41,314 bases of DNA from an uncultured Sporosarcina sp. (GTDB lineage Bacteria; Bacillota; Bacilli; Bacillales_A; Planococcaceae), in contig CANSAF010000020.1 of the NCBI GenBank assembly GCA_947644645.1, positions 1-41,314 of the forward strand, read 5' to 3'. A program made the position numbers and the translations under genes. Below, in pieces: positions 1-39,309 of the stretch; position 1 is the first letter of the stretch, and every line of letters begins with the position of its first letter. Below the pieces are notes generated by a model. It searched no databases. It was given only the letters and a program-made list of their open reading frames with translations, and was not told the DNA's origin.

Positions 1-32
1 TAATGCCGACGATGCCACAGGACGTGGCGGTT

Positions 33-662
33 TTAGTCGGCCTGTCCGTTAATGCGGGATAACTTAAATGCTTCTCCAACAACTGCATCTGTTTCTAGCA
101 CAAGAATGCCTACATTTTGCTCCGCATTTGGAATTGCTAATTCAGAAGCCGAGCAAATCATACCAGATGATGGTACGCCGCGCAGTTCAGCATCACGAAT
201 CACCATTCCAGATGGCATAACCGCGCCTACTTTTGCTACTACTACTTTTTGATCCGCGTCAATATTTGCCGCGCCGCAAACGATTTGTAGTTGTTCTGTT
301 CCAACATCTACCGTACAAACACTTAGTTTATCAGCATTTGGATGCTTTTCTTTTGAAACAACATGACCAATAACAAATTTTGGCGATAAATCCACATCAA
401 ACGTGTACGCTACGTTATTTTTCGTCATTGCCTGTTGTAAAGTTTCCACTAATTCCTCAGTCAATTCAACTTGACCATTTGCTTCTACTTCCGCATATGA
501 GCTTGCTTCAAAAATATTGAAACCGATAATTTCTTCTGTTTGAGCATCGCGAAGAATGACAACATCTCCGGACTGTTCAGTCGCAACCTCTTTCGGCGTA
601 TTTGTTGTTAATTGGATAAGAAATACATTCCCTACCCCTTCTTTGTTGTAAAATAAATTCAT
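33..662 (-). CDS. ytpR: YtpR-type tRNA-binding domain protein
   Basis: Stand-alone protein of 209 residues. An N-terminal part of about 90 residues resembles the DUF4479 region of YtpR. It is followed by an EMAP-II/PheT-type OB-fold tRNA-binding domain (about 96-200), recognisable by HPNADKL (107-113), VCGAAN (129-134) and the G-x-x-S-x-GM-x-CS loop (162-171). The family resembles the N-terminal tRNA-binding module of the phenylalanyl-tRNA synthetase beta chain; its role in Bacillus is undefined. The ATG is preceded by AAAGGAC, and the stop of ytpQ lies 1-2 nt upstream, so the two are probably translated from one mRNA. Family assignment is firm; function is not. Confidence 0.93.
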   Translation of the reverse strand: MNLFYNKEGVGNVFLIQLTTNTPKEVATEQSGDVVILRDAQTEEIIGFNIFEASSYAEVEANGQVELTEELVETLQQAMTKNNVAYTFDVDLSPKFVIGHVVSKEKHPNADKLSVCTVDVGTEQLQIVCGAANIDADQKVVVAKVGAVMPSGMVIRDAELRGVPSSGMICSASELAIPNAEQNVGILVLETDAVVGEAFKLSRINGQAD

Positions 663-7504: not shown

Positions 7505-7659
7505 GAAATAGAGTCAAACAAAACACTGACTTTTCATTAAGTATACTGAAGTCATAGGAAGGATGTGCGGCGCTTATAAATTTCAACATGTTTCATATAA
7601 CAATTCACAATCTCATGCTTTTCGTTTTGGAAACCAGATGATAAAGGAGTGTTGAACAG

Positions 7660-7875
7660 TTGAAAGAAGCTACTGAACGCATGCTCACCCGTGTTAAAGA
7701 CGTCTATATGTATATCCTTGATAATGGTACAGTGACTACACAAAACGTAGTCGATGAATTTGACATTACACCTCGTACCGCACAAAGGGATTTAAACGTG
7801 CTTGAGTACAATGAACTGGTAACAAGCCCTGTACGTGGAAAATGGACGACAACATCTAAAAAAGTTATTTCGTAA
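7660..7875 (+). CDS. ytzE: small DeoR-type HTH protein YtzE
   Basis: 71-residue protein that is essentially a lone helix-turn-helix of the DeoR family. VTTQNVVDEFDITPRTAQRD (about 25-44) carries the recognition helix, and the typical sugar-phosphate-binding C-terminal domain is absent. Length and sequence match B. subtilis YtzE. The start is a TTG at 7660 with AAAGGAGT nine bases upstream; the first internal ATG (codon 8) would remove conserved residues. A strong terminator follows. It probably acts as a DNA-binding regulator, but its targets are unknown. Confidence 0.88.
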   Translation: MKEATERMLTRVKDVYMYILDNGTVTTQNVVDEFDITPRTAQRDLNVLEYNELVTSPVRGKWTTTSKKVIS

Positions 7876-7883
7876 ATTTAAGT

Positions 7884-7937
7884 GAGGCTGACCAAAAAGT
7901 CGAAGTTCGTGACTTTTTGGTCGTCTCGCTTTTTTGT
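7884..7937 (+). terminator. terminator of ytzE, AGTTCGT-loop type
   Basis: A perfect 12-bp stem, GACCAAAAAGTC (7890-7901) with GACTTTTTGGTC (7911-7922), loop GAAGTTCGT, outer GAGGC/GTCTC pairing, then CGCTTTTTTG. Confidence 0.95.
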
Positions 7938-7946
7938 TTGTGTACG

Positions 7947-8198
7947 TTTATAGCGATGAGAAGTGTATTTATCACGCGCGGGGTCGAGTTTACAACGAGT
8001 GGAGGTGAGTTTACAAAGATCAAATGAGTTCACAGCGCGGGGGCGCGAGTTTACAACAAAGCATGACGTATTTACAGCGCAGGACGGTGAGTTTACAAAG
8101 CCTAAACGAGTTCACAGCGCAGGGCCGCGAGTTTACAACAAAACATGACGTATTTACAGCGCAGGGCGGTGAGTTTACAAAGACCATACGAGTTCATA
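7947..8198. repeat. 21-bp phased repeat array (array 1, 13 units)
   Basis: The core TTTACA (variants TTTATA, TTTATC, TTCACA, TTCATA) starts at 7947, 7968, 7989, 8010, 8029, 8050, 8071, 8092, 8111, 8132, 8153, 8174 and 8193. Spacing is 21-21-21-19 repeated three times, producing an 82-bp higher-order unit; the second and third copies are nearly identical and the first is diverged. Cores are usually preceded by GAG or GTA and often followed by GCGC. The array fills the gap between the ytzE terminator and the ytzG terminator, that is, between two convergent genes. No gene is supported here. Confidence 0.93.
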
Positions 8199-8239
8199 AA
8201 AAAAAGCGTTCAAGAAAGTCATCGACTCCTCAAACGCTT
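8197..8239 (-). terminator. terminator of the ytzG gene
   Basis: On the minus strand, AAGCGTTTGAGGAGTC pairs imperfectly with GACTTTCTTGAACGCTT and is followed by eight T residues. It starts about 10 bases after the ytzG stop and abuts the last unit of the 21-bp array. Confidence 0.9.
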
Positions 8240-8248
8240 AAATTTCTA

Positions 8249-8968
8249 CTAATCTTCTGCTAAATGCTCTAATAATGCAAGTTCTTCTTCGGTCAATTCA
8301 CGATAATGACCGAGTGGAATTGATTCATCGAGTTGCAGCGGTCCCATTGATAAGCGTTTTAAATAAACGACTTTTTTTCCGACTGCCTCGAACATTCTTT
8401 TCACTTGATGGAACTTTCCTTCTGTAATCGTTAGTTCAATTTCTGAAACTTGATCCGATTTAAGAATTTTTAATTGTCCCGGCTTTGTTTCATAACCATC
8501 ATCTAATGTAACACCTTTTAGAAAAGCTTCGACATCTTCTTCCGTCACAACGCCTTCGATATGCGCATAATACGTTTTCGGTACGTTTTTCTTCGGTGCA
8601 AGTAAATTATGCGCGAGCTTGCCGTTGTTTGAAATGAGTAAAAAGCCTTCTGTATCTTTATCTAAACGCCCAACTGGGAATGGTTTAAAATGACGATGTT
8701 CTGCACTTAACAGATCAATGACCGTTCGTTCTCTCGTATCTTCTGTCGCAGATAAGATGCCTTGGCTTTTATTCATCATTAAATATATAAATTCTTGATA
8801 AATCACTGGCTCCCCGAAACAAGTTACAACATCATTTTCCGTATCAATATGAATATTTGGCTTTTTCACCACTTCTTCATTGACGCGAACTGCGCCATTT
8901 TTTAAATACTGCTTTACTTCTTTTCGCGAACCGAAGCCCATATTCGCGAGTAATTTATCTAAACGCAT
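8249..8968 (-). CDS. ytzG: RsuA-family 16S rRNA pseudouridine synthase
   Basis: 239 residues: an N-terminal S4 RNA-binding domain (RLDKLLANMGFGSRKEVK, about 2-45) followed by the RsuA/RluB-type catalytic domain with the nucleophilic Asp in GRLDKDTEG (D103). It isomerises a specific uridine of rRNA, probably in the small subunit as RsuA does; the target is inferred. I start at 8968, where AGGAGG lies seven bases upstream; the longer frame to 8989 overlaps murJ. The ribosome site overlaps the murJ stop codon (CTAGGAGG), a coupled arrangement. Named after the B. subtilis gene in the same place. Confidence 0.92.
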   Translation of the reverse strand: MRLDKLLANMGFGSRKEVKQYLKNGAVRVNEEVVKKPNIHIDTENDVVTCFGEPVIYQEFIYLMMNKSQGILSATEDTRERTVIDLLSAEHRHFKPFPVGRLDKDTEGFLLISNNGKLAHNLLAPKKNVPKTYYAHIEGVVTEEDVEAFLKGVTLDDGYETKPGQLKILKSDQVSEIELTITEGKFHQVKRMFEAVGKKVVYLKRLSMGPLQLDESIPLGHYRELTEEELALLEHLAED

Positions 8969-8978
8969 TGAATTCCTC

Positions 8979-10592
8979 CTAGAAACCAAACTTCGATGTA
9001 ATTCTTTTCAGCCTGTCACCAAATAACTTTTGTGCAAGCCCTGTTTTTAAAGATAAAATTCCGTAAACGACGACGCCAACAGTCGCACAAATTAAAATAT
9101 AAAGCAGTGCATGCATTTTACCGCCAACTGGACTCAATGCATTTAAACCTTTTAATGTAAAGAACACGGCGATAAACATAACAAGGTTCAATAAAAGAAT
9201 GAGCACCAATCTTCTAAGTACCATTTGAGATCTATAATGAAGCGTTTTTGTAATGACGCCGATATTTAAACCGACCGCTACTGTATAACCAATCACTGTC
9301 GCTAAAATTGCGCCGTTCGTTTCGAATAATTTAATGAGTGGAATATTTAACATTAATTTCAATAACAAACCAAATAATGATGTAAATACAATCCATTTAT
9401 GACGGTCAATCCCTTGTAAAATCGCCGCCGTCACTGTATATAAACCAAATAAAACTGCAACTGGTGCATAGTTTGCTAAAATAGACGCACCCATTTCGCT
9501 TTTACTATAAAGCAATTGGTAAAGTTCATTGGATAATACTGAAATCCCAATGACCATTGGAACAGTTAAATAAATCATAATTTGATATGTTTGATCCAAT
9601 GAACGAGTAATTCCTTTTTGATTGCCTTTTGTATAATACCCCGTCAACACAGGTATTAATGCCATCGAAAAGCCCGTTGCGACCATCACTGGAATCATCA
9701 CAAATTTATGGGTTAATAAATTGAGCATCCCTAAATACGTATTTGAATCTTTACCCGCTACACCAATCGACTGCATCGCATTGTTAAAAGTTACCATATC
9801 GACAAATTGATAAAGTGGATTGATCACTCCTACTAATACAAATGGAAGGATATATGCGACAATTTCTTTCACCATATCTTTCACTGGAACATGACCAGCT
9901 GGTGGACTATTTGCTAATAAATAATCGAATTCCGGTTTATATTTTCGCCAATACCAATATAAAACACCTAGACTCGCAAGTGCGCCAATTGAAGCGGCAA
10001 AAACAGCAAAATTAATCGCAATTGTCGGAGATTCATGTAAAAAGTTTACAACAATAAATGCCCCAGCCAAAACAACGATAATTCTTACAATCTGTTCAAT
10101 TAATTGAGAAACCGCAGTCGGTTCCATTTTATTATAGCCTTGTAAAAAACCGCGAACGACACTCATCATCGGTACTGCAAGAAGTGCATAACTTGCCCAA
10201 CGAATAACACTCGCAATTTCTTCAATCGTAAATGTTTCTTCATCATCCGCAATGACTAAATGTGCCAGTGGTTCCGCCAAAAAGAACAACACTAAAAACG
10301 AGGAAATCCCCGTTATGACCATGATTCCCATACTACCTTTTAATATTTTACGTCCCGTCGCGTAATCACCAAGTGCATTATAGCGCGCAACAAACTTAGA
10401 AATCGCAAGCGGCGCGCCTCCGATCGCAATCGATAACGCAATATTATAAGGAATATAACCATATTGATATAATCCAATATTTTCTTCTCCAACAATCGCA
10501 TAAAAGGGAATTAAATAAAACAAACCGAGCGCCTTTGAAAGAAACAGCCCAATTGTTAAAATTGCGGTCCCTTTAAGAAGTTTTGACGACAT
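8979..10592 (-). CDS. murJ: lipid II flippase MurJ (YtgP), MviN/MATE-like
   Basis: 537-residue polytopic membrane protein with about 14 hydrophobic segments, basic loops and the MOP-superfamily start (LLKGTAILTIGLFLSKALGL). The B. subtilis gene in this position, ytgP, encodes MurJ, which flips lipid II across the membrane for wall synthesis. SpoVB-type relatives are the alternative, but conserved order ytzE-ytzG-ytgP-ytfP favours MurJ. The ATG is preceded by AAGGTTGA. It is co-transcribed with ytzG downstream and divergent from ytfP, with the promoters in the 150-bp gap 10593-10743. Confidence 0.9.
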   Translation of the reverse strand: MSSKLLKGTAILTIGLFLSKALGLFYLIPFYAIVGEENIGLYQYGYIPYNIALSIAIGGAPLAISKFVARYNALGDYATGRKILKGSMGIMVITGISSFLVLFFLAEPLAHLVIADDEETFTIEEIASVIRWASYALLAVPMMSVVRGFLQGYNKMEPTAVSQLIEQIVRIIVVLAGAFIVVNFLHESPTIAINFAVFAASIGALASLGVLYWYWRKYKPEFDYLLANSPPAGHVPVKDMVKEIVAYILPFVLVGVINPLYQFVDMVTFNNAMQSIGVAGKDSNTYLGMLNLLTHKFVMIPVMVATGFSMALIPVLTGYYTKGNQKGITRSLDQTYQIMIYLTVPMVIGISVLSNELYQLLYSKSEMGASILANYAPVAVLFGLYTVTAAILQGIDRHKWIVFTSLFGLLLKLMLNIPLIKLFETNGAILATVIGYTVAVGLNIGVITKTLHYRSQMVLRRLVLILLLNLVMFIAVFFTLKGLNALSPVGGKMHALLYILICATVGVVVYGILSLKTGLAQKLFGDRLKRITSKFGF

Positions 10593-10743
10593 AATTCAAC
10601 CTTCCATTCTGTAAAATCTACTCTTTAGTTTACCCCTGTAAATGACAATAAACAATCTTTATCGTAATATGATGTGTGAGCAATGTTTAAAAACGTCTCA
10701 AGATTTCATTATAACATCCAATTGAAAGTGTGGTTAATATAAA

Positions 10744-12009
10744 ATGTACGATGTAATTATTATTGGCGCAGGTCCTTCGGGATTAATGGCCTCTATCGCC
10801 GCTGCAGAAAACGGCAGTAAAGTACTTGTGCTTGAAAAAGGTAAAAAGCCGGGCAATAAATTAGCAATTTCAGGCGGTGGACGTTGTAACGTCACCAACC
10901 GTTTGCCAGAAGAAGAAATCATCAAAAATATTCCTGGTAATGGACGATTTTTATACGGTCCATTTTCTGTATTTAATAATGATGATATTATCCGGTTTTT
11001 CGAAGGGTTAGGTGTTCCCCTTAAAGAAGAGGACCATGGAAGGATGTTTCCGGTTTCAAATAAAGCAAAAGATGTCGTGGGTGCTTTATTAAATGAAATG
11101 GAAAGACTTCATGTCGAATTGAAACTCGAAACAAAAGTTGCAAAATTATTAATGGATGATGAAAAAATTCTTGGCGTCCGTTTAACGACAGGAGAAGAAA
11201 TTCGCGCACATGCGGTTGTTCTAGCAGTCGGCGGTAAAGCAGTCCCACAAACTGGAAGTACCGGAGATGGCTATCCTTGGGCAGAACGTGCGGGACATAC
11301 GATTACAACTTTATATCCAACTGAAGTGCCTTTATTATCCAAAGAGTCGTTTATCGTTACAAAAGAACTTCAAGGGCTTGCGCTCCGCGACGTCGCCGTT
11401 TCTGTGTTAAATAAAAAAGGAAAATCGATTATCACACATACGATGGACATGCTTTTCACCCACTTCGGATTAAGCGGTCCTGCCATTTTACGTTGCAGCC
11501 AATTTGTCGTAAAAGAACAGATGAAAAATGGCGGGGCACCTGTCACGATGAAGATCGATACAATGCCGACATTAAATGAGGAAGAGATTTTCCAGTTATT
11601 AAATAAAACTGTAAAAGATGAAGCAAAAAAACAAGTAAATAATGCTTTAAAAAATCTTGCACCTGAAAGATGGTTAAACTTCTTACTGGAACGCGCAGTG
11701 ATTTCACCAACAGATACAGGCGCAACATTATCAGCAGAAAAGCTACGAAATTTAGCAGCATTATTAAAAGGATTCACAATGGAAGTAAATGGCACACAAC
11801 CCATTGAAAAAGCTTTCGTAACGGGCGGCGGCGTTTCCACAAAAGAAATCGTCCCTAAAACAATGGCATCTAAAAAGAAAGACGGGCTTTATTTCTGCGG
11901 AGAAATCCTAGACATTCACGGCTACACAGGCGGCTATAATATTACCTCTGCGCTTGTTACGGGAAGAATTGCGGGAATGAGTGCTGGCGAATTTTCGGGG
12001 ATGCAGTGA
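10744..12009 (+). CDS. ytfP: YtfP, HI0933/YhiN-type FAD-binding oxidoreductase
   Basis: 421-residue flavoprotein. The N-terminal Rossmann motif is [19 protein letters not shown] (6-24), followed by E32 for the FAD ribose, the family signature [10 protein letters not shown] (about 44-53), and a C-terminal FAD-contact region with [10 protein letters not shown] and HGYTGGYNI. The family (HI0933-like, NAD(P)/FAD-dependent oxidoreductase) is widespread and its substrate is unknown. Only a weak Shine-Dalgarno (AAAGTGTGG) precedes the ATG. The coding region runs directly into 21-bp repeat array 2 after the stop; I see no clear terminator of its own. Confidence 0.92.
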
Positions 12010-12021
12010 TTTAGAAATTGC

Positions 12022-12072
12022 GCGGACATTTTCGGCGATTGCGCGGACATTATTTGACTTTCCGCGGACATT
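12022..12072. repeat. 21-bp phased repeat array (array 2, 3 units)
   Basis: GCGGACATT begins at 12022, 12043 and 12064, exactly 21 bp apart, immediately downstream of the ytfP stop and pointing toward leuS. Read on the minus strand the core is AATGTCCGCG, which shares TCCGCG with the TTTATCCGCG core of array 3. Confidence 0.85.
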
Positions 12073-12121
12073 TCCAGTGAGCGTGCATTAAATCTATGAA
12101 CATGCAAACAGCAAGCGCATT

Positions 12122-12505: not shown

Positions 12506-14923
12506 CTACTTCGCTACAATATTAACCAGTCTTCCTGGAATTCCAATAATCTTTTTCACTTCTTTGCCATCTAAAAACTCTTTCACTTTTTCGTCTTCTA
12601 ACGCAATTGCTTCGAGCTCTTCTTTTGTGCTGTCTTTGGCAACTTCGATACGCGCGCGTACTTTTCCATTAATTTGAACAGCAATTTCAACTGTATCATC
12701 CACTAATTTAGACGCGTCATATGTTGGCCATGCTTCGTAGACAACTGTATTTATATAACCTAATTTCTCCCATAATTCTTCCGCTAAGTGAGGAACAATT
12801 GGTGAGATTAGTTTTACAAAGCCTTCTGCGTATTCAGTTGGTACGCGTTCTGCTTTATAACAATCATTGATGAAGACCATCATTTGAGAAATCGCCGTAT
12901 TATTACGCATTCCTTCAAAGTCATCCGTCACTTTTTGAACCGTTTGGTGATACACTTTTTCAAGGTCTCCACCAGCTTCACCGTTGATTTTATCGCTTAA
13001 TTCGCCCGTTTCATCATTGACGAATAAACGCCAAATGCGGTCTAAGAAACGACGTGAGCCATCCAGTCCATTTGTTGACCAAGCTTTTGAAGCATCTAAT
13101 GGCCCCATGAACATTTCATACAGACGAAGTGTGTCTGCACCGTGTGAATGCACGATATCATCAGGGTTAATGACATTGCCTAGTGATTTAGACATTTTTT
13201 CATTACCTTCTCCTAAAATCATTCCTTGGTTGAATAATTTTTGGAATGGCTCTTTCGTCTCGACAACGCCGATATCATATAAAACTTTATGCCAGAAACG
13301 TGCGTATAGTAAATGAAGTACCGCATGCTCTGCACCACCAACGTAAATGTCAACTGGTAACCAACGTTTCGCTAAATCTGGATCAATAATCATCTCATCA
13401 TTATTTGGATCGATATAACGTAAGTAATACCAGCAGCTTCCTGCCCATTGTGGCATTGTATTCGTTTCACGGCGACCTTTCATACCTGTTTCAGGATGAA
13501 CCACATTAACCCACTCATCGATATTCGCAAGTGGTGATTCGCCTGTTCCACTTGGTTTAATATCCGATGTTTTCGGTAATTCAAGTGGTAATTCTGATTC
13601 ATCTAACGCTGTCATTGTGCCATCTTCCCAATGGATAATCGGGATTGGCTCGCCCCAATAACGTTGTCTTGAGAATAACCAGTCGCGTAGGCGGTAAGTA
13701 ATTTTCTTTTCACCATTGCCTTTTTCTTCAAACCAAGCAATCGCTTTTTCAATCGCTTCTTCTTTTCCTAAACCATTTAAGAAATCTGAATTGATATGGC
13801 TACCATCCCCAACATAAGGCTCTTTAGAAACGTCTCCACCTTCAACGACTTCAATAATTGGTAAATCAAATTTCGTTGCGAACTCAAAATCACGATCATC
13901 ATGTGCTGGAACTGCCATGATTGCGCCTGTACCGTAAGAAACAAGTACATAATCTGCAATCCAAATTGGCATTTTCTCGCCGCTTGCCGGGTTAATGGCA
14001 TAAGCACCTGTAAATACGCCCGTTTTCTCGTCTGCCAAATCTGTACGTTCTAAATCACTTTTCAGCTTCACTTCATTCAAATATGCTTCTACAGCTGCTT
14101 TTTGCGCTTCTGTCGTAATTTCTTTTACAAGTTTATGTTCAGGCGCTAAAACTGCGTATGTTGCACCGAAAATTGTATCAGGACGTGTAGTAAATGCTTT
14201 AAATGTTTTGTCTGTGCCATCGATTTCAAACGTTAATTCAGCACCTTCTGAACGACCAATCCAGTTACGTTGCATATCTTTTAAGCTTTCTGGCCAATCA
14301 AGATCTTCTAAGTCTTCTAATAAACGATCCGCATATTCTGTAATACGAAGCACCCATTGACGCATCGGACGGCGTTCAACAGGGTGTCCACCACGTTCCG
14401 AAAGACCATCTACAATTTCTTCGTTCGCAAGGACTGTACCAAGTGCCGGGCACCAGTTCACATCGACTTCGTCCACATAAGCAAGTCCTTTTTTATACAG
14501 TTGAATGAAAATCCATTGTGTCCATTTATAATAAGATGGATCTGTCGTATTAATTTCACGGTCCCAATCATATGAAAACCCAAGATCTTTCATTTGACGT
14601 TTAAATGTCGCAATGTTTTTTGCAGTAAATTCCGCTGGATCATTTCCAGTATCTAGTGCATATTGTTCAGCTGGTAAACCGAAAGCGTCCCATCCCATCG
14701 GGTGAAGGACATTATACCCTTGCTTACGTTTAAATGAACTTAAAATATCCGTTGCGATATAACCAAGTGGATGCCCAACATGTAACCCCGCACCAGATGG
14801 ATACGGGAACATATCCAATGCATAAAACTTCGGTTTTGACGGATCGTCTGTCATTTTATATGTTTTATTTTCTTCCCAATATTGTTGCCATTTCTTTTCG
14901 ATTTGACCATGATTGTAACTCAT
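12506..14923 (-). CDS. leuS: leucyl-tRNA synthetase
   Basis: 805-residue class I aminoacyl-tRNA synthetase charging tRNA-Leu. The HIGH signature appears as HVGH (about 48-51) inside [16 protein letters not shown]. The inserted CP1 editing domain follows ([12 protein letters not shown] and the [16 protein letters not shown] motif that binds mischarged aminoacyl ends), then KMSKS in EKMSKSLGN and the C-terminal anticodon-binding domain. Length is typical for Bacillus LeuRS. I chose the ATG at 14923, eight bases after AGGAGG, over the TTG directly before it. The upstream T-box with a CUC specifier independently confirms the amino acid. Confidence 0.98.
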
Positions 14924-15051
14924 CAATAATTCCTCCTAAAATCAATTACACTTCGGTATATTTTCATCCAACGCGCGTTTACACACCCGCCAATTGAAAA
15001 ATAAAACCTTATGTTGCCAACCATTAACTTGGATGGATGATGTCCTTAAAA

Positions 15052-15306
15052 TGAAAATAAAAAACTCGTCCCTTAAAAAAATATAAGGGACGAGATCCTA
15101 TACATTGCTCCCGCGGTACCACCCAAATTGACGAATTTTCGTCCAACTTGTATCCTTAACGCGGATCACGGCAGAAGTTACTTCATTTCACTTTTGCATG
15201 CTCGAAGGTGAGTTCATCTATTCGTTCACTATCGGCTCGCACCACCCGCCGATTCTCTGGAAGTCACGTTAACAGATTACTAATCCTTTTCAAAGCAAAG
15301 ACTTAT
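15052..15306 (-). promoter_or_regulatory. leucine T-box riboswitch of leuS
   Basis: On the minus strand, a stem I region (about 15300-15180) contains the specifier loop GAACTCACC, whose CTC (forward 15210-15212) is a leucine codon. The T-box core GGGTGGTACCGCGG lies at 15111-15124, and a terminator stem (CTCGTCCCTTA, 15065-15075, with 15084-15094) is followed by a T-run. Uncharged tRNA-Leu should pair with both sites and favour the antiterminator. The remaining 130 nt to the start codon (14924-15051) show no further recognisable element. Confidence 0.96.
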
Positions 15307-30204: not shown

Positions 30205-30543
30205 TCAATATTGAATCGTAATCGCCAAGGCTCCCCATTCTTTTTCCTGTTCTTTTGTAAAAATCTCATAAGTTCCCTCAATCATTTCTTTCATCGTCCA
30301 TCCTTCACAATCAAAAGCTTTAAATGGAATCTCCTCGTACATTTTTTCAAATGTTTCATATACTTGTAAATCAATGACTTGCACTTGTAAAATCTGAGTT
30401 CGACTTGGTACTTCAACAAATTCAATCATATCCCCCACTTTAATTTCCCTTCTTTTCTCATCATTCAGCCAAACTTCAATCCGTTTTCTTCCCGCTTGAA
30501 TTGCATTGAAATATTCTTGATATAATCCCATTTTATGTTTCAT
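30205..30543 (-). CDS. ASCH domain protein
   Basis: 112 residues covering a single ASCH domain, a PUA-like fold: the family motif G-x-K-x-x-E-x-R appears as GRKRIEVWLND (about 17-27), followed by KVGDMIEF. ASCH proteins bind RNA or modified nucleosides (one branch hydrolyses N4-acetylcytidine), so an RNA-related role is inferred. The start at 30543 follows AAAGGAGCC; the longer frame to 30582 overlaps the upstream membrane-protein gene. It is the last gene of a four-gene minus-strand run (31454 to 30205). Confidence 0.85.
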   Translation of the reverse strand: MKHKMGLYQEYFNAIQAGRKRIEVWLNDEKRREIKVGDMIEFVEVPSRTQILQVQVIDLQVYETFEKMYEEIPFKAFDCEGWTMKEMIEGTYEIFTKEQEKEWGALAITIQY

Positions 30544-30556
30544 CAACTGGCTCCTT

Positions 30557-31000
30557 TCACCAAAGCTCTCCAAACAAGCCAAAAATATTTGTCATATATA
30601 ATACAATCAATAGGATGATAATAAAGATTAGTTGAAACAGCGTCAGCAAATAAGCATTACGATTCTCCGCATATTTCCGCTCCATCCATATTCTTACGGA
30701 TTCTGTCACAAAAATCATCACGAATAACAAAAAATACGGCTCTAAAAATAAGAGTGTCGAAGGATACCTTGCTATATTCACAAATCCACCTACTACAATC
30801 ATAATCATCGCCGCAATTCGTAAACCCCAGTCAATTTTCTTATGGCGCGCATTTACATGATTATAGGAAAACATCTTCCTCCGCTCGACTTTCAATAATC
30901 GCCTCGTCACTTCGCCAAACAAAAATAAGATCAACCATAAGCCAACAATTAGTAAGATAAACTTTAAACCGAAGAACGATCCCCCGCCTTCAACAATCAC
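30557..31000 (-). CDS. DUF4181-like membrane protein
   Basis: 147 residues with four hydrophobic helices (about 10-30, 61-78, 84-101, 117-140). The basic segment LKVERRKMFSYNHVNARHKKIDW between the first two resembles the DUF4181 family of Bacillales membrane proteins. It starts at a GTG with TAGGGGA upstream; an ATG three bases earlier is out of frame. Function unknown; found in many accessory gene runs. Confidence 0.72.
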   Translation of the reverse strand: MIVEGGGSFFGLKFILLIVGLWLILFLFGEVTRRLLKVERRKMFSYNHVNARHKKIDWGLRIAAMIMIVVGGFVNIARYPSTLLFLEPYFLLFVMIFVTESVRIWMERKYAENRNAYLLTLFQLIFIIILLIVLYMTNIFGLFGELW

Positions 31001-31009
31001 ATAAATCCC

Positions 31010-31252
31010 CTACCCATCATTTACATTCAATTTGTTTTTACTAAGCATTCTAGTAATAACAGACCATAACCCGTAGATTAAAAAAGCATTAATCAGCAAA
31101 GTCGACAAATCAAAAAACATATACTGAAAACCCAATTCCTTCACTTGAAAAATCGAAACCATTTCTTCGCCTTTATATTGAATCCAATTGAAAGGAATGC
31201 CCATTAGAAATGCAAGACATGCACTGATCAAAATCTTTTGTTTTCTCGTCAT
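31010..31252 (-). CDS. small two-helix membrane protein
   Basis: 80 residues with transmembrane segments at about 6-24 and 45-68 and a short charged C-terminus. The ATG follows TAGGAGGG. It lies between the glycine-rich protein gene and the DUF4181-like gene with gaps of about 10 bp. I do not recognise the family. Confidence 0.7.
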   Translation of the reverse strand: MTRKQKILISACLAFLMGIPFNWIQYKGEEMVSIFQVKELGFQYMFFDLSTLLINAFLIYGLWSVITRMLSKNKLNVNDG

Positions 31253-31262
31253 TCAATCCCTC

Positions 31263-31454
31263 CTACTCATCGTGATCCTTAGATTTTTTAGCATCCATTG
31301 AAGCACCAATCGCAACGCCAATCGATAAACCCATACCGATGCCAAGCGCAATATTATCAAAGACAACTAAACCAAGCACCACACCAAAACTAAGTCCAAG
31401 ACTAATACCTAGCGAAATATAGGAAGTTTCTTTATCTGGTTTTTGTTTAGTCAT
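31263..31454 (-). CDS. small glycine-zipper membrane protein
   Basis: 63 residues. The centre (about 12-50) is one continuous hydrophobic stretch with Gly spaced every four residues (LGISLGLSFGVVLGLV, LGIGMGLSIGVAIG), a glycine-zipper pattern that favours close helix packing in membranes; ends are charged. The ATG follows AAAGGAAGG. Function unknown. Confidence 0.72.
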   Translation of the reverse strand: MTKQKPDKETSYISLGISLGLSFGVVLGLVVFDNIALGIGMGLSIGVAIGASMDAKKSKDHDE

Positions 31455-31506
31455 TATAAAACCTTCCTTTCAAATTCTTTTAAGAAGCTCACTTCATAAT
31501 AAAAAA

Positions 31507-32034
31507 TTATTCTTTGAGAAGTGAATAAATATATGTATCATGTGCAGCGCCACCTTGATACATATAATTTCTCAAAATCCCTTCTTGTTGAAAGCCAATT
31601 TTTTGCAATAATTGATTCGACGCTTCATTTTCAATAAACACAACCGCGCCAATTCGCGTTAACCCCATTATCTCAAAACCATAAGAAAGGACTTCAGCTA
31701 TGGCCTCTGAAGTGTACCCCTTTCGCCAATATTTTGGGTGTATTTCATACCCAATTTCAGCACGTTTATGTTTGGGTAACCAAGCGTTAAAACCAATTGT
31801 GCCAATGATTTCTTGAGTTCCTTTACGTTCAATTCCCCATCGTATTCCTCTTTTTTCATGAAAGTTTCTTGAGAATCGTTCAATGAATTTCTCCGCCTCT
31901 TCTATTTCTTTCAGCGGTTCTTGCCCGTAAAAACGCATGACATCCTCATTAGAAAAACACGCAAAAATCCCTTCCGCATCTTCATTATTTAATTCCCTCA
32001 ATATAAGCCGATCCGTCTCTAATATTGGAAACAT
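31507..32034 (-). CDS. GNAT acetyltransferase, RimJ/RimL type
   Basis: 175 residues starting ILETDRLILREL, the RimJ/RimL-type opening. The acetyl-CoA loop is YWRKGYTSEA (about 107-116), then the conserved N-x-x-S segment ENEASNQLLQKIGF near residue 140-153. Such enzymes acetylate N-termini of proteins or small amines; substrate unknown. The ATG follows AAGGGGAGAG. First of three RimJ-like/GNAT genes in this accessory run, which are only distantly alike. Confidence 0.88.
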   Translation of the reverse strand: MFPILETDRLILRELNNEDAEGIFACFSNEDVMRFYGQEPLKEIEEAEKFIERFSRNFHEKRGIRWGIERKGTQEIIGTIGFNAWLPKHKRAEIGYEIHPKYWRKGYTSEAIAEVLSYGFEIMGLTRIGAVVFIENEASNQLLQKIGFQQEGILRNYMYQGGAAHDTYIYSLLKE

Positions 32035-32057
32035 TTAATCTCTCCCCTTATTTTCAC

Positions 32058-32249
32058 TCAACGAATAAAAGCAAAATAAATAATCCCGACAAATATTAAT
32101 ACAAGCATCATAATCCCTGTACTTTTCCATCCCATTCCACCAACTGTATCTGAAAGATTGCTGCCATGAATACTACTTGAAGGATGTTTTAATTCTTTCT
32201 GTCGTAATTTCTCCCTTCTCTCCCCGGGTGTTTGACGATGATTACTCAT
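32058..32249 (-). CDS. DUF6366-like small membrane protein
   Basis: 63 residues. A charged N-terminal half with TPGERREKLRQKELKHP, a middle SDTVGGMGWKSTG and one C-terminal transmembrane helix (about 43-61) match the layout of DUF6366 proteins of Bacillales. The start at 32249 follows GGAGGAGA; the frame to 32273 is an extension. Function unknown. Confidence 0.75.
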   Translation of the reverse strand: MSNHRQTPGERREKLRQKELKHPSSSIHGSNLSDTVGGMGWKSTGIMMLVLIFVGIIYFAFIR

Positions 32250-32284
32250 TTTATCTCCTCCAATCTTTCTCATCTGCTATTCTC

Positions 32285-32815
32285 CTAATACGTTAATGTA
32301 ATGATGTAGTAAATGCCAAGTAACTCAACAACAGAAAGGTCAACATCTTCTGCTAAATAACTAATCTTCAAAGACAGCGGAATCTTTTTCTCAATGCTAA
32401 TCTTCGCACAAACTTGATTGTCTACTTGTACTTCACAAACTCGATTGAACATTTCTTTTTTTAATAGATATTCTTTATCGTTTTTGGAATAAACCATACG
32501 CGGATTTGTGCTAATCTTTGTTTTATCCTCTAACAAGTATTGATTCACTTGATCAGCATGCGTCAACGACACATCCCACTTCATTTTCAATAAATTGGAT
32601 TTAAAAGATTGTTCTTGTATATCAATTACATGCGCTTTATTTTCGCCGTAGACATTAATTTTCCGTCCAATTGGCAAAGAAGATGTCTGAATCAGTTTAT
32701 CCCATTTGTTTTTATACTTTCTTCCAATAAACCCTACTTCAACATCCTCTTCATTATGAATAGTGATTCGTTTACTTGAATCCCGCCACATAGGCAATAC
32801 TGCGTAAAAATTCAT
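32285..32815 (-). CDS. tubby C-terminal-like domain protein
   Basis: 176 residues, no signal peptide, alternating strands with a hydrophobic C-terminal segment (VVELLGIYYIITLTY). The organisation resembles the tubby-like/LURP-one beta-barrel proteins seen in Bacillus accessory regions. Homology is a judgment from pattern, not from a definite motif. The ATG follows AAGGAGT. Function unknown. Confidence 0.6.
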   Translation of the reverse strand: MNFYAVLPMWRDSSKRITIHNEEDVEVGFIGRKYKNKWDKLIQTSSLPIGRKINVYGENKAHVIDIQEQSFKSNLLKMKWDVSLTHADQVNQYLLEDKTKISTNPRMVYSKNDKEYLLKKEMFNRVCEVQVDNQVCAKISIEKKIPLSLKISYLAEDVDLSVVELLGIYYIITLTY

Positions 32816-32829
32816 TAAAATACTCCTTA

Positions 32830-33069
32830 CTATAAATTCTGACTACTCTTCTTAGAAGTCAATTGAACGAGCACAAAAGAGATAATAAATGAAATAAAAC
32901 CAAATATAAATACTTTCAACCAAGATATTTCCATATTGTAAGGAGATAGTTCCTCCATATTCAAAGTGTATAATGACCACCATTCATCTGTCGTAGCTAG
33001 CAGGACTGAAGCCAGTAACCAAACTGCAAAGAGAATGATTGCATTCACAAAAATCAGAACCTTTTTCAT
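32830..33069 (-). CDS. small two-helix membrane protein
   Basis: 79 residues with transmembrane segments at about 3-25 and 48-70. The external loop is acidic and aromatic (DEWWSLYTLNMEELSPYN). The start at 33069 follows AAGGAGAG; the longer frame to 33084 contains that site. It precedes the tubby-like gene by 14 bp. I do not recognise the family. Confidence 0.68.
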   Translation of the reverse strand: MKKVLIFVNAIILFAVWLLASVLLATTDEWWSLYTLNMEELSPYNMEISWLKVFIFGFISFIISFVLVQLTSKKSSQNL

Positions 33070-33110
33070 ACTTCTCTCCTTCATTCCATTAAATACTCGT
33101 TAGTAAGTGA

Positions 33111-33665
33111 TTAATTCGGTCGTTTTTCATAAGGATGGATTCTGCCGATGAGCGATTCAGAATTCCCTGATTGAATATGTTGAATGACTCCCGCCGATAT
33201 TTCTTCATGCGTTAACCATCTTGAATGATTTCCTTCCAATATAAAACCTAAGTAAATACTACTCTGCGTACAATTCGATGGGACATTTAAGATGTCATCA
33301 TTAAAATACCTTCTACTCCCCTTCACTTGATACAAATGCCAATGTTTAATATACTCAGAAACCAATTTATTGACAATTTCCAACGCCTGCGTAGAAGGAG
33401 TCCAACTGACAACTAATGATATAGGTCCATATTTTTGAATGGATTTTCTTATCTGTTCTTCTAATAATGAATGATTATGATAGTCTACCTTCAAACTATT
33501 CATCAAATCAGAATGAGTCGCTTTCTTCATTAACCGATCATGCTTTTCTTTACTTCTTCCAATGACAGAGGTCTGATAACCCATTTCCATCAGCCAAAGC
33601 GAAACCTCTGATAACATGCCTGTACCGCCAACTACAAGTGCATGTTTTTCACTCAATTTAACCAC
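33111..33665 (-). CDS. short-chain dehydrogenase-like Rossmann protein
   Basis: About 184 residues. The NAD(P)-binding motif is ALVVGGTGMLSEVSLWL (about 9-25), followed by a basic SVIGRSKEKHDRL that suggests NADP. The SDR catalytic Y-x3-K is present only as YQVKG (about residues 111-115) and may not be functional; the chain is short for an SDR (usually about 250). The start is uncertain: a GTG at 33665 after GGAG and a TTG at 33656 after GGGGTGG are both reasonable. Reaction unknown. Confidence 0.72.
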   Translation of the reverse strand: MVKLSEKHALVVGGTGMLSEVSLWLMEMGYQTSVIGRSKEKHDRLMKKATHSDLMNSLKVDYHNHSLLEEQIRKSIQKYGPISLVVSWTPSTQALEIVNKLVSEYIKHWHLYQVKGSRRYFNDDILNVPSNCTQSSIYLGFILEGNHSRWLTHEEISAGVIQHIQSGNSESLIGRIHPYEKRPN

Positions 33666-33697
33666 CCCATATTTCTCCAACAATTGCGAAGTTCATT

Positions 33698-33775
33698 TTA
33701 CAAAACTTGAAATAAAGCCGCAATCACAAAATAAGTGAAGACGCCCGCTAGAAAAATCAATACCTTTTTCTTCAT
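33698..33775 (-). CDS. 25-residue single-helix membrane microprotein
   Basis: MKKKVLIFLAGVFTYFVIAA and five more residues: a basic N-terminus and one hydrophobic helix. The ATG at 33775 has GGGAGACG at good spacing, and the stop lies about 30 bp before the dehydrogenase-like gene. Too short for automatic gene finders. A real gene is supported by the ribosome site and amphipathic design, but no homolog is recalled. Confidence 0.55.
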   Translation of the reverse strand: MKKKVLIFLAGVFTYFVIAALFQVL

Positions 33776-33884
33776 AAATTTCGTCTCCCTTCTCAGCTAC
33801 CTAGTTTGCCTTCTTCTAGTGCAGTATGAAAATTAAAGACTCATTGTGAATTCACAAAAAATCATTCTCAAATTTTCCTACTTA

Positions 33885-34457
33885 TTAATCCACTTTAGAA
33901 TTTTTATAGTAAATCAGATTATCCGTCCACTCACCAAACTCAAAAATAAATCGTTTTCTTGTACACTCATATTCCATGCCCACACTCTTCGCCAAATTAA
34001 TTGACGCTGAATTATCTAAATTAATATGCGCCTCAATACGATGATATTTCAAATCCTTAAAAGCAATGTTAAGCGCTTCTTTTACCGCTTCTTTACCATA
34101 ACCCATTCCCCAATACTGATTATGAAGCGTGTATCCTATTCTTCCCCATTGGAAGTCCTCTCTTTCCAAAGTTGAAAAATCGATCATGCCTATATGAGTG
34201 CCATCGCTTTTATTAAAAACAGCAAATACATAAGCAGTATCTTTTAACGCTAACTCTTGATGTTTATTAACCAGATTAGTAAACCATTCAAGCGTACATT
34301 CACGCATATCTATTTTCCCTAAATCATGCCTATGCTTAGATAATTGACGATTGTTAAACCCTTCTAACCATTTTTCATAATCAGCAATATTTAAGGGTCT
34401 GATTTCCAATCGCTCTGTTTCTAACACAATGTTAAAACGTTCTTCTTCCAATATCAA
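33885..34457 (-). CDS. GNAT acetyltransferase, RimJ/RimL type
   Basis: 190 residues; LETERLEIRPLNIADYEKWLEG near the N-terminus, acetyl-CoA loop NQYWGMGYGKEAVKEAL (about 113-129) and the N-x-A-S segment NLDNSASINLAKSVGM. The start is a TTG, eight bases after AGGAG; an ATG between them is out of frame and closed after two codons. Acceptor substrate unknown. The 169-bp gap upstream (34458-34626) holds no supported gene. Confidence 0.87.
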   Translation of the reverse strand: MILEEERFNIVLETERLEIRPLNIADYEKWLEGFNNRQLSKHRHDLGKIDMRECTLEWFTNLVNKHQELALKDTAYVFAVFNKSDGTHIGMIDFSTLEREDFQWGRIGYTLHNQYWGMGYGKEAVKEALNIAFKDLKYHRIEAHINLDNSASINLAKSVGMEYECTRKRFIFEFGEWTDNLIYYKNSKVD

Positions 34458-34626
34458 TGTAACATCTCCTCTGTATTAATTTCCCTAATAAAAATAATCT
34501 AGCATGTAAACAATAAAAAAACACATCTTTCACTACTTTTTCCAATTAAGCCGATTAAACCCCTACAGATAAAACAACTGTCTTTTAAAAGTTAGTAAAT
34601 CTTATATCTTATTGAACTTCACCATA

Positions 34627-34989
34627 TTACTTTGCGCGTACTTCTACTTTCTCCATTCCACGTTGAGGCGGATTGGAATCTAATTGGCTCCCATCCCAAT
34701 ACACAATGACTTCAGTACCCACAATTAAATTCTCGTATTCACCAGACTTAAAGCCGTAATATGCGCCTTTTTGTTCTTGTGCCATTTCGATTAACGCTTC
34801 TTGTTCTTTATTGACTAAATCGGCTGCCTCTATATTTGGAATGACCAATATTTGATTCCATCCATCTGGATTTTCCAGTACGTCAGCAATGATGCCTTCT
34901 TGTTGCTCCAAGGCACTGTTCTTTTTTTCTGGGCTACAACCTACTAACAAGACGACCAAAACAAACAATAAAACAAATCGCTTTTTCAT
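34627..34989 (-). CDS. DUF3221 lipoprotein
   Basis: 120 residues. Signal peptide with lipobox LLVGC (Cys 18), then a compact beta domain with EGIIADV, ILVIPN and VYWDGSQLDSNPPQ, the pattern of DUF3221 (YobA-type) secreted proteins of Bacillus. It should be tethered outside the membrane. The ATG follows TAGGGGG. Function unknown. Confidence 0.82.
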   Translation of the reverse strand: MKKRFVLLFVLVVLLVGCSPEKKNSALEQQEGIIADVLENPDGWNQILVIPNIEAADLVNKEQEALIEMAQEQKGAYYGFKSGEYENLIVGTEVIVYWDGSQLDSNPPQRGMEKVEVRAK

Positions 34990-35012
34990 AAAGAGCCCCC
35001 TAAATATGCTTA

Positions 35013-35531
35013 CTAAACAAACTTACACATCAAAACATCATCAATATAGCTGCCGTTTTCCATTTTAAATTCTTTAACTTTTCTCCCTTCCTCTGTAAAG
35101 CCCATTTTTTCATATAAAGCAATCGCTCTTTCATTTGTGGAAAAAACGCCTAAAGAAACTTTTTCGATAAGTGGATTTATTTCCGCCCAATCCAAAATTC
35201 CTTTAATAAGTAATTTTCCAATACCCGAATTTCTATATTTCTTCTCAATCATCATGCCAATAGAACCGGTATGAGACAACCTGATTCTGTTTGGCGCTAA
35301 AAACACAATCCAACCTACAATGCCTTTTGAAGTTTCTGCAACAAGCATCGTTTCATAATCATTATGTAAAACTTTATTTATCCAATCTCTTTGTTGATCC
35401 ACCGTCTTATCGAATTCTTCCGCGGAAGTTGTTAAATAAATTCCTTCTGCCACAACCTCTCTCTGAATTTGTAGTGTCCTTAAAGCATCTTCAACCTTTG
35501 CCGTTCGGACTACTATATTTTCTTTAAACAT
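35013..35531 (-). CDS. GNAT acetyltransferase
   Basis: 172 residues with the full GNAT layout: strand VRTAKVEDA, MLVAETSKGIVGWIVF, acetyl-CoA loop EKKYRNSGIGKLLIKGIL (about 111-128) and the late NERAIALYEKMGF motif. Closest in design to the PhnO/RimI-like N-acetyltransferases. The ATG follows GGGGGGGAAG. Substrate unknown. Confidence 0.88.
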   Translation of the reverse strand: MFKENIVVRTAKVEDALRTLQIQREVVAEGIYLTTSAEEFDKTVDQQRDWINKVLHNDYETMLVAETSKGIVGWIVFLAPNRIRLSHTGSIGMMIEKKYRNSGIGKLLIKGILDWAEINPLIEKVSLGVFSTNERAIALYEKMGFTEEGRKVKEFKMENGSYIDDVLMCKFV

Positions 35532-35546
35532 CCCACTTCCCCCCCT

Positions 35547-36005
35547 TCATTTTTCCTTGATGTTCACAAGGGATGTAAATTGATTAAAAGAACTTAATAC
35601 ATCTTCACTTAACGGATGACTAAATTCTTGTGTTTTCAACGGTAACACCCCTTCTTGTTCAACTTGCTTTAAATATTCTTGAAACCCTAAAACAATAGCC
35701 ACCATGTATTTTCTTAGCTCAAATTGATATTCAAATATACCTTCTGGATAATGACCAATATGCTTTATAAAAAGGGTTATACCATCTGTTGAAAATATAT
35801 AATAATCAAAATTCCCATGACAATCTAATTGTACCTCACTCATTTCTTCCTTATATAAAGATGAAAGAGCTGACAAGAAATTCGGAATTGACATAAAGCC
35901 TAAACCTGACTTAAAGCTAAATAACTGCGTATCAGTCGAAACGTCAAATTGAATATCTCCACCGCTCAAGTCAATATTAACTAAGCATGTATAATATGAA
36001 TCCAC
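35547..36005 (-). CDS. hypothetical protein
   Basis: About 152 residues, soluble, mixed alpha/beta, with a SFKSGLGFMSIPNFLSALSSLY segment and a C-terminal acidic helix. I do not recognise the family. The start is the GTG at 36005, nine bases after GGAGG; the ATG at 36020 lies within that ribosome site. It is followed after 15 bp by a GNAT gene and is probably co-transcribed with it. Confidence 0.68.
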   Translation of the reverse strand: MDSYYTCLVNIDLSGGDIQFDVSTDTQLFSFKSGLGFMSIPNFLSALSSLYKEEMSEVQLDCHGNFDYYIFSTDGITLFIKHIGHYPEGIFEYQFELRKYMVAIVLGFQEYLKQVEQEGVLPLKTQEFSHPLSEDVLSSFNQFTSLVNIKEK

Positions 36006-36082
36006 AATATCAACCTCCATTAACCTTTTCGGTTGTTAAGAAAAAAAGAATATATTGCTATTGTAGTTCTTGGAATAAATAC

Positions 36083-36865
36083 TTAAATATCAATGAGCTT
36101 AATTGCTCTCGTAGCAATAAAAGTTTTAATATGCTTGTCTATTATTCTTGTTCCCCCGAAATCATCTTCGTAAAAACCTGAGATTACAAATCCAGCTTCA
36201 ATCTGACCTTGAATTTGATCTTCTAAAGTATGTGCATATTCTATCGTTTTTTTTGAACTGATATATGCTTGAATTTCATCCTTAGGCAAGTAATCCAATG
36301 TCGATGAAGGGATGGAATTTTTAACATCAAGGATACCTTTTCTTTCTTGATTATCGTCAAATATCCATAGTAAAGGATTCGTAAATCCAGCAATCAAAAT
36401 CCCTTTCTCTTTTAAAACCCTCGATGCTTCATTCCATACGGGTTTTACATCCTTTACAAATAAGTTGGAAACCGGATGAACAACAATATCAAAATATTCA
36501 TCTTCGAAATCACTTAAGTCGGACATATCTCCTTGAACCGTTTTTAAATTTAGGCCATCGCGTTTTGCTACAATTTCATCTTGCTCTAATTGTTTCTTGG
36601 AAATATCAGTAACCGTTACATCTGCCCCAGCTGCTGCTAAAATTGGACCTTGTTGACCTCCACCAGAAGCAAGGCATAATATCTTTAATCCATCTAAAAC
36701 TTTTGGAAACCATTCTCTCGGAACAGATTTTTCTGTCGTAACAGAAATTTCCCAATGACCGGCTTTGCTTTTTTTAATTGTTTCACTACTCACCTGTTGC
36801 GTATACCTAGAACCTTCATCTACTTTTTTATCCCAAGCATCGCTGTTATGTTTTATTAAATCCAT
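36083..36865 (-). CDS. class I SAM-dependent methyltransferase
   Basis: 260 residues. Motif I is ILCLASGGGQQGPILAAAGA (about 62-81), the acidic residue after strand 2 is in VTVTDIS, motif post-II is QGDMSDL and motif III FDIVVHP. The N-terminus NSDAWDKKVDEGSRYTQ is typical of small-molecule methyltransferases of Bacillales accessory regions. Substrate unknown. The ATG follows GTAGGGGGAG. It is complete, with no sign of decay. Confidence 0.88.
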   Translation of the reverse strand: MDLIKHNSDAWDKKVDEGSRYTQQVSSETIKKSKAGHWEISVTTEKSVPREWFPKVLDGLKILCLASGGGQQGPILAAAGADVTVTDISKKQLEQDEIVAKRDGLNLKTVQGDMSDLSDFEDEYFDIVVHPVSNLFVKDVKPVWNEASRVLKEKGILIAGFTNPLLWIFDDNQERKGILDVKNSIPSSTLDYLPKDEIQAYISSKKTIEYAHTLEDQIQGQIEAGFVISGFYEDDFGGTRIIDKHIKTFIATRAIKLIDI

Positions 36866-36930
36866 TATTTTTTCTCCCCCTACAAAGAAACTAACTTTCT
36901 TGAAGCATCTTTTTTAAGTCGCCCACCAAA

Positions 36931-37260
36931 CTATGGCTGTTGAAAACCAAAAGTCCCTATCAGCATAATAAAAAGGTAAAAGAGCATTGCTAAAACATTA
37001 ATAAATAATAAGCCCCCTCTTATTCCCTCCTTCACGCCAAACCATCCAAATACTATGCCCAATGCTCCGAAACCAAATGGCAAAAATAAACTTATATTAA
37101 TCAAAGTAGTAAACAAATTAAAGTTCCATATTGGCGTAATGATTAGCAATATAAATGCACCAGATAAAAGGGAATTCACTTTGGCTCTGATGTTAGATGG
37201 ATTTTTTAAAATAAAATAATAGGCGAACACTGTATATAGAAGCAAAAAAATCCAAATCAT
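36931..37260 (-). CDS. small polytopic membrane protein
   Basis: 109 residues with four hydrophobic segments (about 2-18, 28-45, 50-72, 81-105) joined by short loops. The ATG follows GGTGGAGG. I do not recognise the family. The 37261-37339 gap before the next gene shows nothing. Confidence 0.68.
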   Translation of the reverse strand: MIWIFLLLYTVFAYYFILKNPSNIRAKVNSLLSGAFILLIITPIWNFNLFTTLINISLFLPFGFGALGIVFGWFGVKEGIRGGLLFINVLAMLFYLFIMLIGTFGFQQP

Positions 37261-37339
37261 TTTCCTCCACCTTTTATGATTTTTTAAGCGTATACGGATG
37301 TCATTTAAACAAAAAAATCAGCTCATCGATGGACTATAA

Positions 37340-37513
37340 TTATTGCTTTTTCTTATCAAAACACTCTTCACAAATAAATTTCCCTTCATTTCTTAACTAG
37401 GCCTTGATTTCAGTTACTCCTCTACTTTTAGGGTAACGCATTTTCACATAAACGATGTCATTCTCTTTAATCTCCGCGTCACATTCCACACACTTTGGTT
37501 TACTTCTAAACAT
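37340..37513 (-). pseudogene. small Cys-pair (zinc-ribbon-like) protein interrupted by an amber codon
   Basis: From an ATG at 37513 with GGGAGGG upstream the frame encodes MFRSKPKCVECDAEIKEND.. to codon 38, then TAG (37397-37399), then continues in the same frame for 18 codons (..NEGKFICEECFDKKK) to TAA at 37340. One CxxC pair lies on each side of the stop, and the whole is 57 codons long, the size of a small Firmicute protein family I recall with IKAYL at this point, so the TAG probably replaced a Tyr codon. A truncated 38-residue peptide may still be made. Confidence 0.6.
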
Positions 37514-37541
37514 AATAACCCTCCCGCTTCAATTCGAATCT

Positions 37542-37628
37542 CTAAGGACGTTCCCCAGTTAACCAAGCAATTAAATAACCGAGAAACATTAGGATAAAAA
37601 AAAGAATGAGCCGCAATTTCCTCAGCAA
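37542..37628 (-). CDS. 28-residue single-helix membrane microprotein
   Basis: TTG start with AGGGAG six bases upstream; the peptide begins MLRKLRLILFFILMFLGYLI and ends AWLTGERP: basic N-terminus, one helix, short polar tail. It lies just upstream of the interrupted Cys-pair gene on the same strand. No homolog recalled. Confidence 0.5.
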   Translation of the reverse strand: MLRKLRLILFFILMFLGYLIAWLTGERP

Positions 37629-37663
37629 TGTTTCTCCCTTCCTTTCCAATCCCACTCAAATGA

Positions 37664-39308: not shown

Positions 39309-39309
39309 A

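Follow-up and report, generated by a model that had tools for sequence, protein, structure and literature searches.

Bacterial intergenic DNA is usually regarded as short and shaped by regulation. In an uncultured Sporosarcina sp., the gap between a DeoR-type HTH gene and a pseudouridine synthase gene is filled by a tandem array of short units that start at strictly repeated intervals. This locus raises two questions: does the same spacing occur elsewhere, and what could maintain it? The window, by which we mean the whole stretch of 41,314 nt analysed here, corresponds to contig C20 of a draft assembly that totals 3,359,205 bases (160 contigs); at the protein level, its nearest relatives are Sporosarcina.

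The window array and its flanks

We recomputed the intervals between the core starts (7947, 7968, 7989, 8010, 8029, 8050, 8071, 8092, 8111, 8132, 8153, 8174 and 8193) and obtained 13 cores with steps of 21-21-21-19 bp three times over, exactly as the initial annotation had it. TTYACA fits 10 of the 13 cores, the degenerate ones being the first two (TTTATA and TTTATC) and the last (TTCATA). Tandem Repeats Finder independently reported a period of 82 with a score of 323 at 8004-8196, and rows of period 42 and period 40 also cover the array. A hairpin scan found two terminator-like hairpins, compared to a shuffle mean of 0.8; they bracket the array, and the annotated location between two convergent terminators thus holds. 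No promoter-like site was found in 7600-8400, and Rfam gave no match in the array region. Within 7800-8350, inverted repeats were limited to the hairpin of the left terminator and a single 14-nt pair bridging both flanks, with none inside the units. The array neighbours are housekeeping genes. The coordinates are collected in Table 1, together with other features of the window.

Table 1. Features located in the window
Feature	Position	Strand	Description
Partial Bacillaceae-1 RNA match	1-53		At the contig edge
Terminator-like hairpin	7889-7923	+	3' of DeoR-type HTH gene 7660-7875 (Pfam HTH_DeoR)
Family-1 array	7947-8198	+	13 units with core GARTTYACA; step order 21-21-21-19, run three times
Terminator-like hairpin	8204-8239	-	3' of pseudouridine synthase gene 8249-8968 (PseudoU_synth_2, S4)
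Family-3 array	12010-12073	+	Three 21-bp units, core TGCGCGGACATT; abuts the stop codon of the HI0933-like gene
T-box leader	15083-15302		Upstream of leucyl-tRNA synthetase gene 12506-14926
Long series of small ORFs	30205-40068	-	Coding scores weak for several; may be an integrated element
Family-2 array	40670-40771	-	Five units of 21 bp; minus-strand core GCGCGGATAAA
Family-2 AT-rich leader	40772-40799	-	Immediately precedes the first unit; consensus of 14 copies TTTTTATTAAAAATATGTTAT

The pseudouridine synthase-HTH gap measures 373 bp here and 39 to 170 bp at 10 other Sporosarcina loci; the window array is thus extra DNA of the source lineage. Among the 67 other genomes of the genus, the highest identity was that of G233 (two pieces of 8249-12009, at 78% and 81%), in which this gap is short and, by eye, holds one terminator-like hairpin. 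The region 3' of the HI0933-like gene was compared across the 70 loci that carry this gene, the window included. Arrays of period 20-21 or 42 and of very different sequence were found at nine of them (L003, L008, L017, L025, L037, L061, L062, L065, and L069), and weak ones in L012 and L015.

Core families in the source genome

BLAST with the window array returned 25 matches in the source genome, itself included, at E values up to 10. The pattern TTYACA N10-12 GARTTYACA gave 86 phased pairs (38 + 48), against 0 for the reversed control, and these fall at about 24 places by manual grouping. The more generic pair TTTAYMNNGC matched once in a genome scan, at the window itself. In 19 family-1 arrays (529 kb of the source genome), we counted 78 steps of 21 bp, 19 of 19 bp, and one each of 20 and 22 bp; seven other intervals took the values 10, 11, 18, 41, and 42. 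The initial annotation had asked whether this spacing recurs at all. It does, genome-wide and in congeners (see below), which rules out a one-off satellite.

The order of the steps also recurs. The 21-21-21-19 order was found in family-1 arrays at C11, C41, C86 (in which a step is interrupted by one additional weak core), C40, C57, and C24, and a 21-21-19 order at C116, C23, and C50; the arrays at C64, C2, C4, C37, C113, C126, C63, and C15 show all 21s or a different order. Across 11 arrays, entered by hand, the distance from one 19-bp step to the next was four steps in 5 of 7 instances (p of 2e-4 by permutation), and in 3 of 5 (p of 0.012) when the window was left out. With exact cores only, TTC occurred in the unit following a 19-bp step in 10 of 13 cases, compared to 18 of 53 following a 21-bp step. 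An 82-bp block is present in family 4 too, which reads 21-21-21-19 twice. Since this order appears at other loci with unrelated spacers, and with unrelated cores, the suggestion that the 82-bp superunit arose by local duplication of blocks within an older array of 21-bp units does not suffice. The accompanying idea of growth by multi-unit blocks is supported.

Conservation within family 1 is concentrated in the core. The consensus is GAGTTYACARCAM, with a pyrimidine preceding the next G; core columns 1 to 9 carry 0.93 to 2.0 bits and spacer columns 14 to 20 at most 0.35, and 77 of the 78 21-mers are distinct. Between arrays, the spacers of 21-mers were identical at 4.42 of 12 positions (4.45 in column shuffles), and those of 19-mers at 4.09 of 10 (4.24 when shuffled). 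This identity is at shuffle level, and therefore family-1 cores are shared genome-wide, but spacers are not. Within arrays, the corresponding values were 5.04 against 4.46 and 7.11 against 4.26. Near-identical spacers across arrays were about as frequent as in shuffles (6 compared to a mean of 3.0, and 5 compared to a mean of 2.8; maximum of 9 in both). The nearest of the congeners compared, at about 80% DNA identity, implies time enough for spacers to drift, so that fixed cores would need either selection or core-specific copying.

Family 1 is one of six core families in a 441-kb sample of the source genome. The cores of families 3, 4, 5, and 6 in this sample are TGCGGACATT, TTAGGTAATT, TTTTCAGTGC, and ACTTCGGGG, respectively, with families 3 and 5 at two places each; the second family-3 array lies at L131 19081-19441. 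The family-2 pattern GCGCGGATAA gave 24 + 21 matches in the source genome, against 1 + 1 when reversed; by manual grouping, it occupies 17 places, with 41 of the 45 matches grouped and 4 single. The AT-rich leader precedes 14 aligned family-2 copies and is diverged in C12 and C30.

We next consider the genes around the arrays. Among 31 array rows with both flanks (two contig-edge rows were dropped), 21 lay between co-directional, 8 between convergent, and 2 between divergent genes; background gaps of at least 50 bp numbered 159, 31, and 39, respectively. The bias is not significant for either divergent (2 of 31, p of 0.19) or convergent gaps (8 of 31, p of 0.10), and as a nonsignificant trend, an excess near convergent genes and terminators was rejected as functional proof. 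Sets from the repeat finder gave 9 co-directional, 2 convergent, and 1 divergent gap in the source genome (n = 12) and 6, 5, and 0 in congeners (n = 11). For 43 of 53 neighbour proteins at 26 loci, Pfam returned 69 families, none of the 25 most frequent occurring in more than two proteins; for the same 43, PADLOC returned 16 families, none in more than two and none a Cas model by name. A local gene system or defence island was set aside, since no Pfam or PADLOC family recurs more than twice among these neighbours.

Step length and distribution among relatives

To describe the step independently of any core, we use 16-bp near-matches in the intergenic DNA of the source genome (203 regions, 57.8 kb). 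These were found at lags of 21 (89 sequence windows in 12 regions), 42 (101 in 9), 61 (27 in 2), 63 (23 in 7), and 82 (141 in 3), with a minor peak at 24 (20 in 3); lags of 10, 31, and 52 had 0 to 2 windows. Neither coding nor shuffled DNA showed such peaks. Curvature alone was rejected as an explanation, since the lags have no peak at 10 or 31 bp, which bending alone would permit. Lag 21 was seen in 11 of 425 regions of Bacillaceae loci.

We defined strong noncoding arrays by a score of at least 100, an AT content of at most 75%, and an overlap with called ORFs of at most 50%, a filter that may drop true arrays and may include RNA genes. The period fell within 0.75 bp of a multiple of 20.5 bp, a band that takes 24 of the 112 integers from 9 to 120, in 31 of 35 strong arrays from Planococcaceae, 3 of 17 from Bacillaceae, and 0 of 3 from elsewhere. 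The Planococcaceae count comprises 8 of 8 in the source genome, 15 of 17 in five congeners (G001, G002, G006, G014, and G016), 3 of 4 in Sporosarcina loci, and 5 of 6 in other Planococcaceae; the four outliers are L187 (78), L191 (67, CRISPR-like), L005 (25), and L062 (120). In a later sample of five congeners, 4 of 10 were in the band (G233, 0 of 1; G248, 1 of 2; G218, 1 of 3; G005, 1 of 3; G013, 1 of 1), and the one from G218 is a tRNA cluster by its sequence.

Separately, intergenic arrays of Bacillaceae cluster at 51 to 53 bp, about five helical turns (10 of 17 strong arrays; examples are L021 5907-6407, L041 4506-5054, L036 17147-17500, L052 423-737, and L038 10739-10890). It is possible that they form a second period class; some of their units look hairpin-like by eye.

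In 30 hand-picked arrays, 275 steps of 17 to 24 bp comprised 218 of 21, 43 of 20, 13 of 19, and 1 of 22 bp, a count that is not blind, since the core finder favours chains of 18 to 23. Many of these arrays are all-21 and two are almost all-20. An order of 21-21-19 runs six consecutive times in G006, 21 and 20 alternate in G002, G006, and G016, and an array of G248 with core GTTGCAAA shows 21-42-19 twice, readable as 21-21-21-19. The initial annotation placed the cores of the window array on one face of the helix. Their phase coherence was 0.94 at about 10.26 bp per turn but 0.48 at 10.5, so that the proposal stands for a pitch of about 10.2 to 10.3 and falls at 10.5 bp per turn. Because all-21 and all-20 arrays fit pitches other than that of the mixed ones, strict alignment of a whole array on one face is not general.

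The cores themselves are restricted in range. Family 1 was at chance level in 260 other genomes of the same family (80 with a match, at most three each; the reversed control gave up to five per genome). The family-2 type pair occurred in 9 of 261 genomes, the source included, with zero in controls. A different core, ACCRAKCATW, was found in 11 of 68 genomes of the genus, also with zero in controls: G219 has 160 pairs, G002 has 151, G228 has 131, and eight others have 1 to 39. Among the units sampled, its steps were 73 of 20 bp and 131 of 21 bp, plus multiples of 40 to 42 bp; a separate list includes one step of 19 bp. An orthologous gap retains the core ACCRATCATAW in G002/G219, G228, G009, and G220/G221, between which the spacers differ, with close genome pairs sharing them in part; G229 has a terminator-like hairpin alone at this gap. 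In a direct comparison of arrays in G220 and G221, in which one of ten array pairs did not align, differences numbered 12 in 648 core positions, 21 in 568 spacer positions (p of 0.053, borderline), and 99 in 7504 flanking positions. Several congeners carry arrays of the same step with other cores. None of these arrays was present in the DNA sampled from three congeners (80 kb of G001, 130 kb of G233, and 59 kb of G218). Two-turn arrays in Planococcaceae are thus common but patchy.

Two more sets of arrays were seen in passing. Four genomes of another genus, g29 (L214 to L217), carry family-2-like arrays, TTTATCCGCGCC, at 21 bp, with a different leader that ends in GGCT; this distribution is patchy, and the arrays are perhaps horizontal or convergent. 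A further family, TGCAAGCAAA, was present in three of three stretches from G013 (L386, L387, and L388), and its complement in G005 (L383).

Explanations of the arrays and comparison with known systems

The same spacing with different words across species points to a candidate system, one that binds DNA or generates repeats, in which the spacing would be retained as the letters change. Judging from sequence alone, we favor, with a probability of roughly 0.4, a reading in which the arrays would be phased rows of asymmetric sites for a co-evolving DNA-binding factor, placed between genes and grown by duplication of blocks of one to four units. Each row would present sites of about 9 to 13 bp at steps of 19 to 21 bp, or two helical turns, in intergenic DNA. 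A candidate sequence-specific factor would occupy each core, and adjacent molecules may contact each other across two turns to form a filament. Selection for binding would preserve the cores and steps, leaving the spacers of 8 to 12 bp to drift. Most likely, such an array would act architecturally or as a roadblock, keeping neighbouring transcription units apart or retaining supercoils between them. The factor would change along with its core from lineage to lineage, and thus the spacing would outlive the sequence. Rows of binding sites agree with the finding that the core and step are constrained and the spacer free (the direct substitution test being borderline), with the gain and loss of whole units, and with the unrelated neighbours. 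The several unrelated cores in the source genome need either several factors or one that is loosely specific, and whatever function the arrays have would be dispensable in some species, given the array-free samples of congeners.

A broader proposal, which we regard as tentative, is that many Planococcaceae share a two-turn system independent of sequence, in which a factor or copying enzyme with a two-turn ruler would keep the steps at 19 to 21 bp (blocks of 21, 41, 61, and 82 bp) in intergenic gaps and the core would be replaced genome-wide between lineages. If this is true, bacteria would have an equivalent of centromeric satellites, with a partner protein evolving as in an arms race.

The strongest rival to the binding-site reading is a copying enzyme acting in trans. 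A recombinase or transposase would recognise the cores and copy the arrays, as self-spreading non-autonomous repeats, into intergenic gaps, with no gain to the host, and DNA near terminators would merely tolerate them. We consider this explanation rather unlikely, although several observations agree with it: family 2 resembles a discrete element, having a leader and, in 9 of 14 copies, a count of exactly five units; families are restricted to lineages and patchy across genera, as the count for the family-2 type illustrates; and the window array lengthens a gap that is short at the other Sporosarcina loci. However, family-1 spacers show no block copying between loci, no shared leader was seen by eye in family 1, and no transposase family recurs among the array neighbours. 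Moreover, self-spreading alone leaves the common step of unrelated cores unexplained.

Alternatively, the arrays could be neutral satellites, arising through replication slippage or unequal exchange whose inherent step would be about two turns, the cores seeming conserved only because the arrays are young. Whole units do come and go: two array indels between G220 and G221 are 21 bp each, and array length at an orthologous gap varies, G002 having 412 bp of period-81 rows, G219 having 575 bp, and G009 retaining about 131 bp of array. The higher-order blocks of two, three, and four units and the greater likeness of spacers within than between arrays would also be expected. Yet youth cannot give fixed cores and randomised spacers in the same units, 20-bp steps are nearly missing in family 1, and local slippage does not put one core at about 24 places; we therefore judge this explanation improbable. 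Transcription of the arrays as a terminator, attenuator, small RNA, or repeat peptide is very improbable, since, even though many arrays sit 3' of gene ends and family-2 copies run one way relative to co-directional genes (the same in 11 of 12 rows and 8 of 9 sites), family 1 runs both ways (5 opposite, 4 same), no reading frame survives the 82- and 61-bp blocks, and the window array lies between two terminators with neither a promoter-like site nor an Rfam match.

The binding-site reading has to be set against known repeat systems. Like minisatellites (VNTRs), the arrays consist of head-to-tail units and change by whole units, here between species and not strains; unlike them, they show the same step over unrelated cores and species, a division into core and spacer, and one core at many loci. 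Centromeric satellites have a conserved monomer length, species-specific sequence, and higher-order blocks. The arrays share all three, an analogy and not membership, but they are bacterial, with a monomer of about 21 bp, and scattered over gaps instead of gathered at one site. Across many species of one family, they amount to satellite-like DNA in which the spacing is conserved and the sequence is not; with several families in one genome and different cores between clades, spacing is separable from sequence as a conserved property, and the arrays provide a naturally occurring example of bacterial concerted evolution.

CRISPR arrays have repeats of about 23 to 50 bp and long spacers. Repeats with variable spacers, and the leader in family 2, recall them. 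However, the units are too short (core of 9 to 13 bp, spacer of 8 to 12 bp), the window neighbours include no cas genes, in line with the initial annotation, and no Cas model by PADLOC name was found among the 43 neighbours at the 26 other loci; a CRISPR-like array of G016 (L191 2886-5390, period 67) looks very unlike these arrays. Plasmid iterons are direct repeats of about 19 to 22 bp, set two helical turns apart, each with an asymmetric core. In unit length and spacing the arrays agree with iterons, but they lie at about 24 dispersed chromosomal places with unrelated, in the window housekeeping, neighbours and not at an origin beside a rep gene. At the sensitivity used, blastn gave no match for families 1, 2, and ACC in 72,556 plasmid records and none for family 1 in 50,697 phage records. 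REP and BIME elements are described (PMC2817692) as intergenic, of high copy number, regularly clustered, and sometimes protein binding, with REPs being palindromes that alternate in orientation within BIMEs. The cores here are asymmetric and unidirectional within an array, at a fixed two-turn step; a REP/BIME identity is not supported, since GARTTYACA is asymmetric and the units of the window array contain no inverted repeats that would form hairpins. No description of these arrays was found among the literature matches listed; one of them ranks tandem heptamers first in frequency among intergenic DNA repeats and notes that many periodic repeats await explanation (PMC6344855).

Viral contigs yielded no stretch with family 2 and 21 with family 1, of which 19 have a single pair; by our estimate, made without a control, these matches are due to chance, given the size of the collection. 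The other two stretches have two pairs each. One (L304) is an apparent low-complexity repeat. The other (L308 1-120, an IMG/VR contig) is a repeat array of six 20-bp units with identical spacers and the family-1 core on the minus strand; its step is in the same range, and it is possibly a chance match or a related array on a viral contig.
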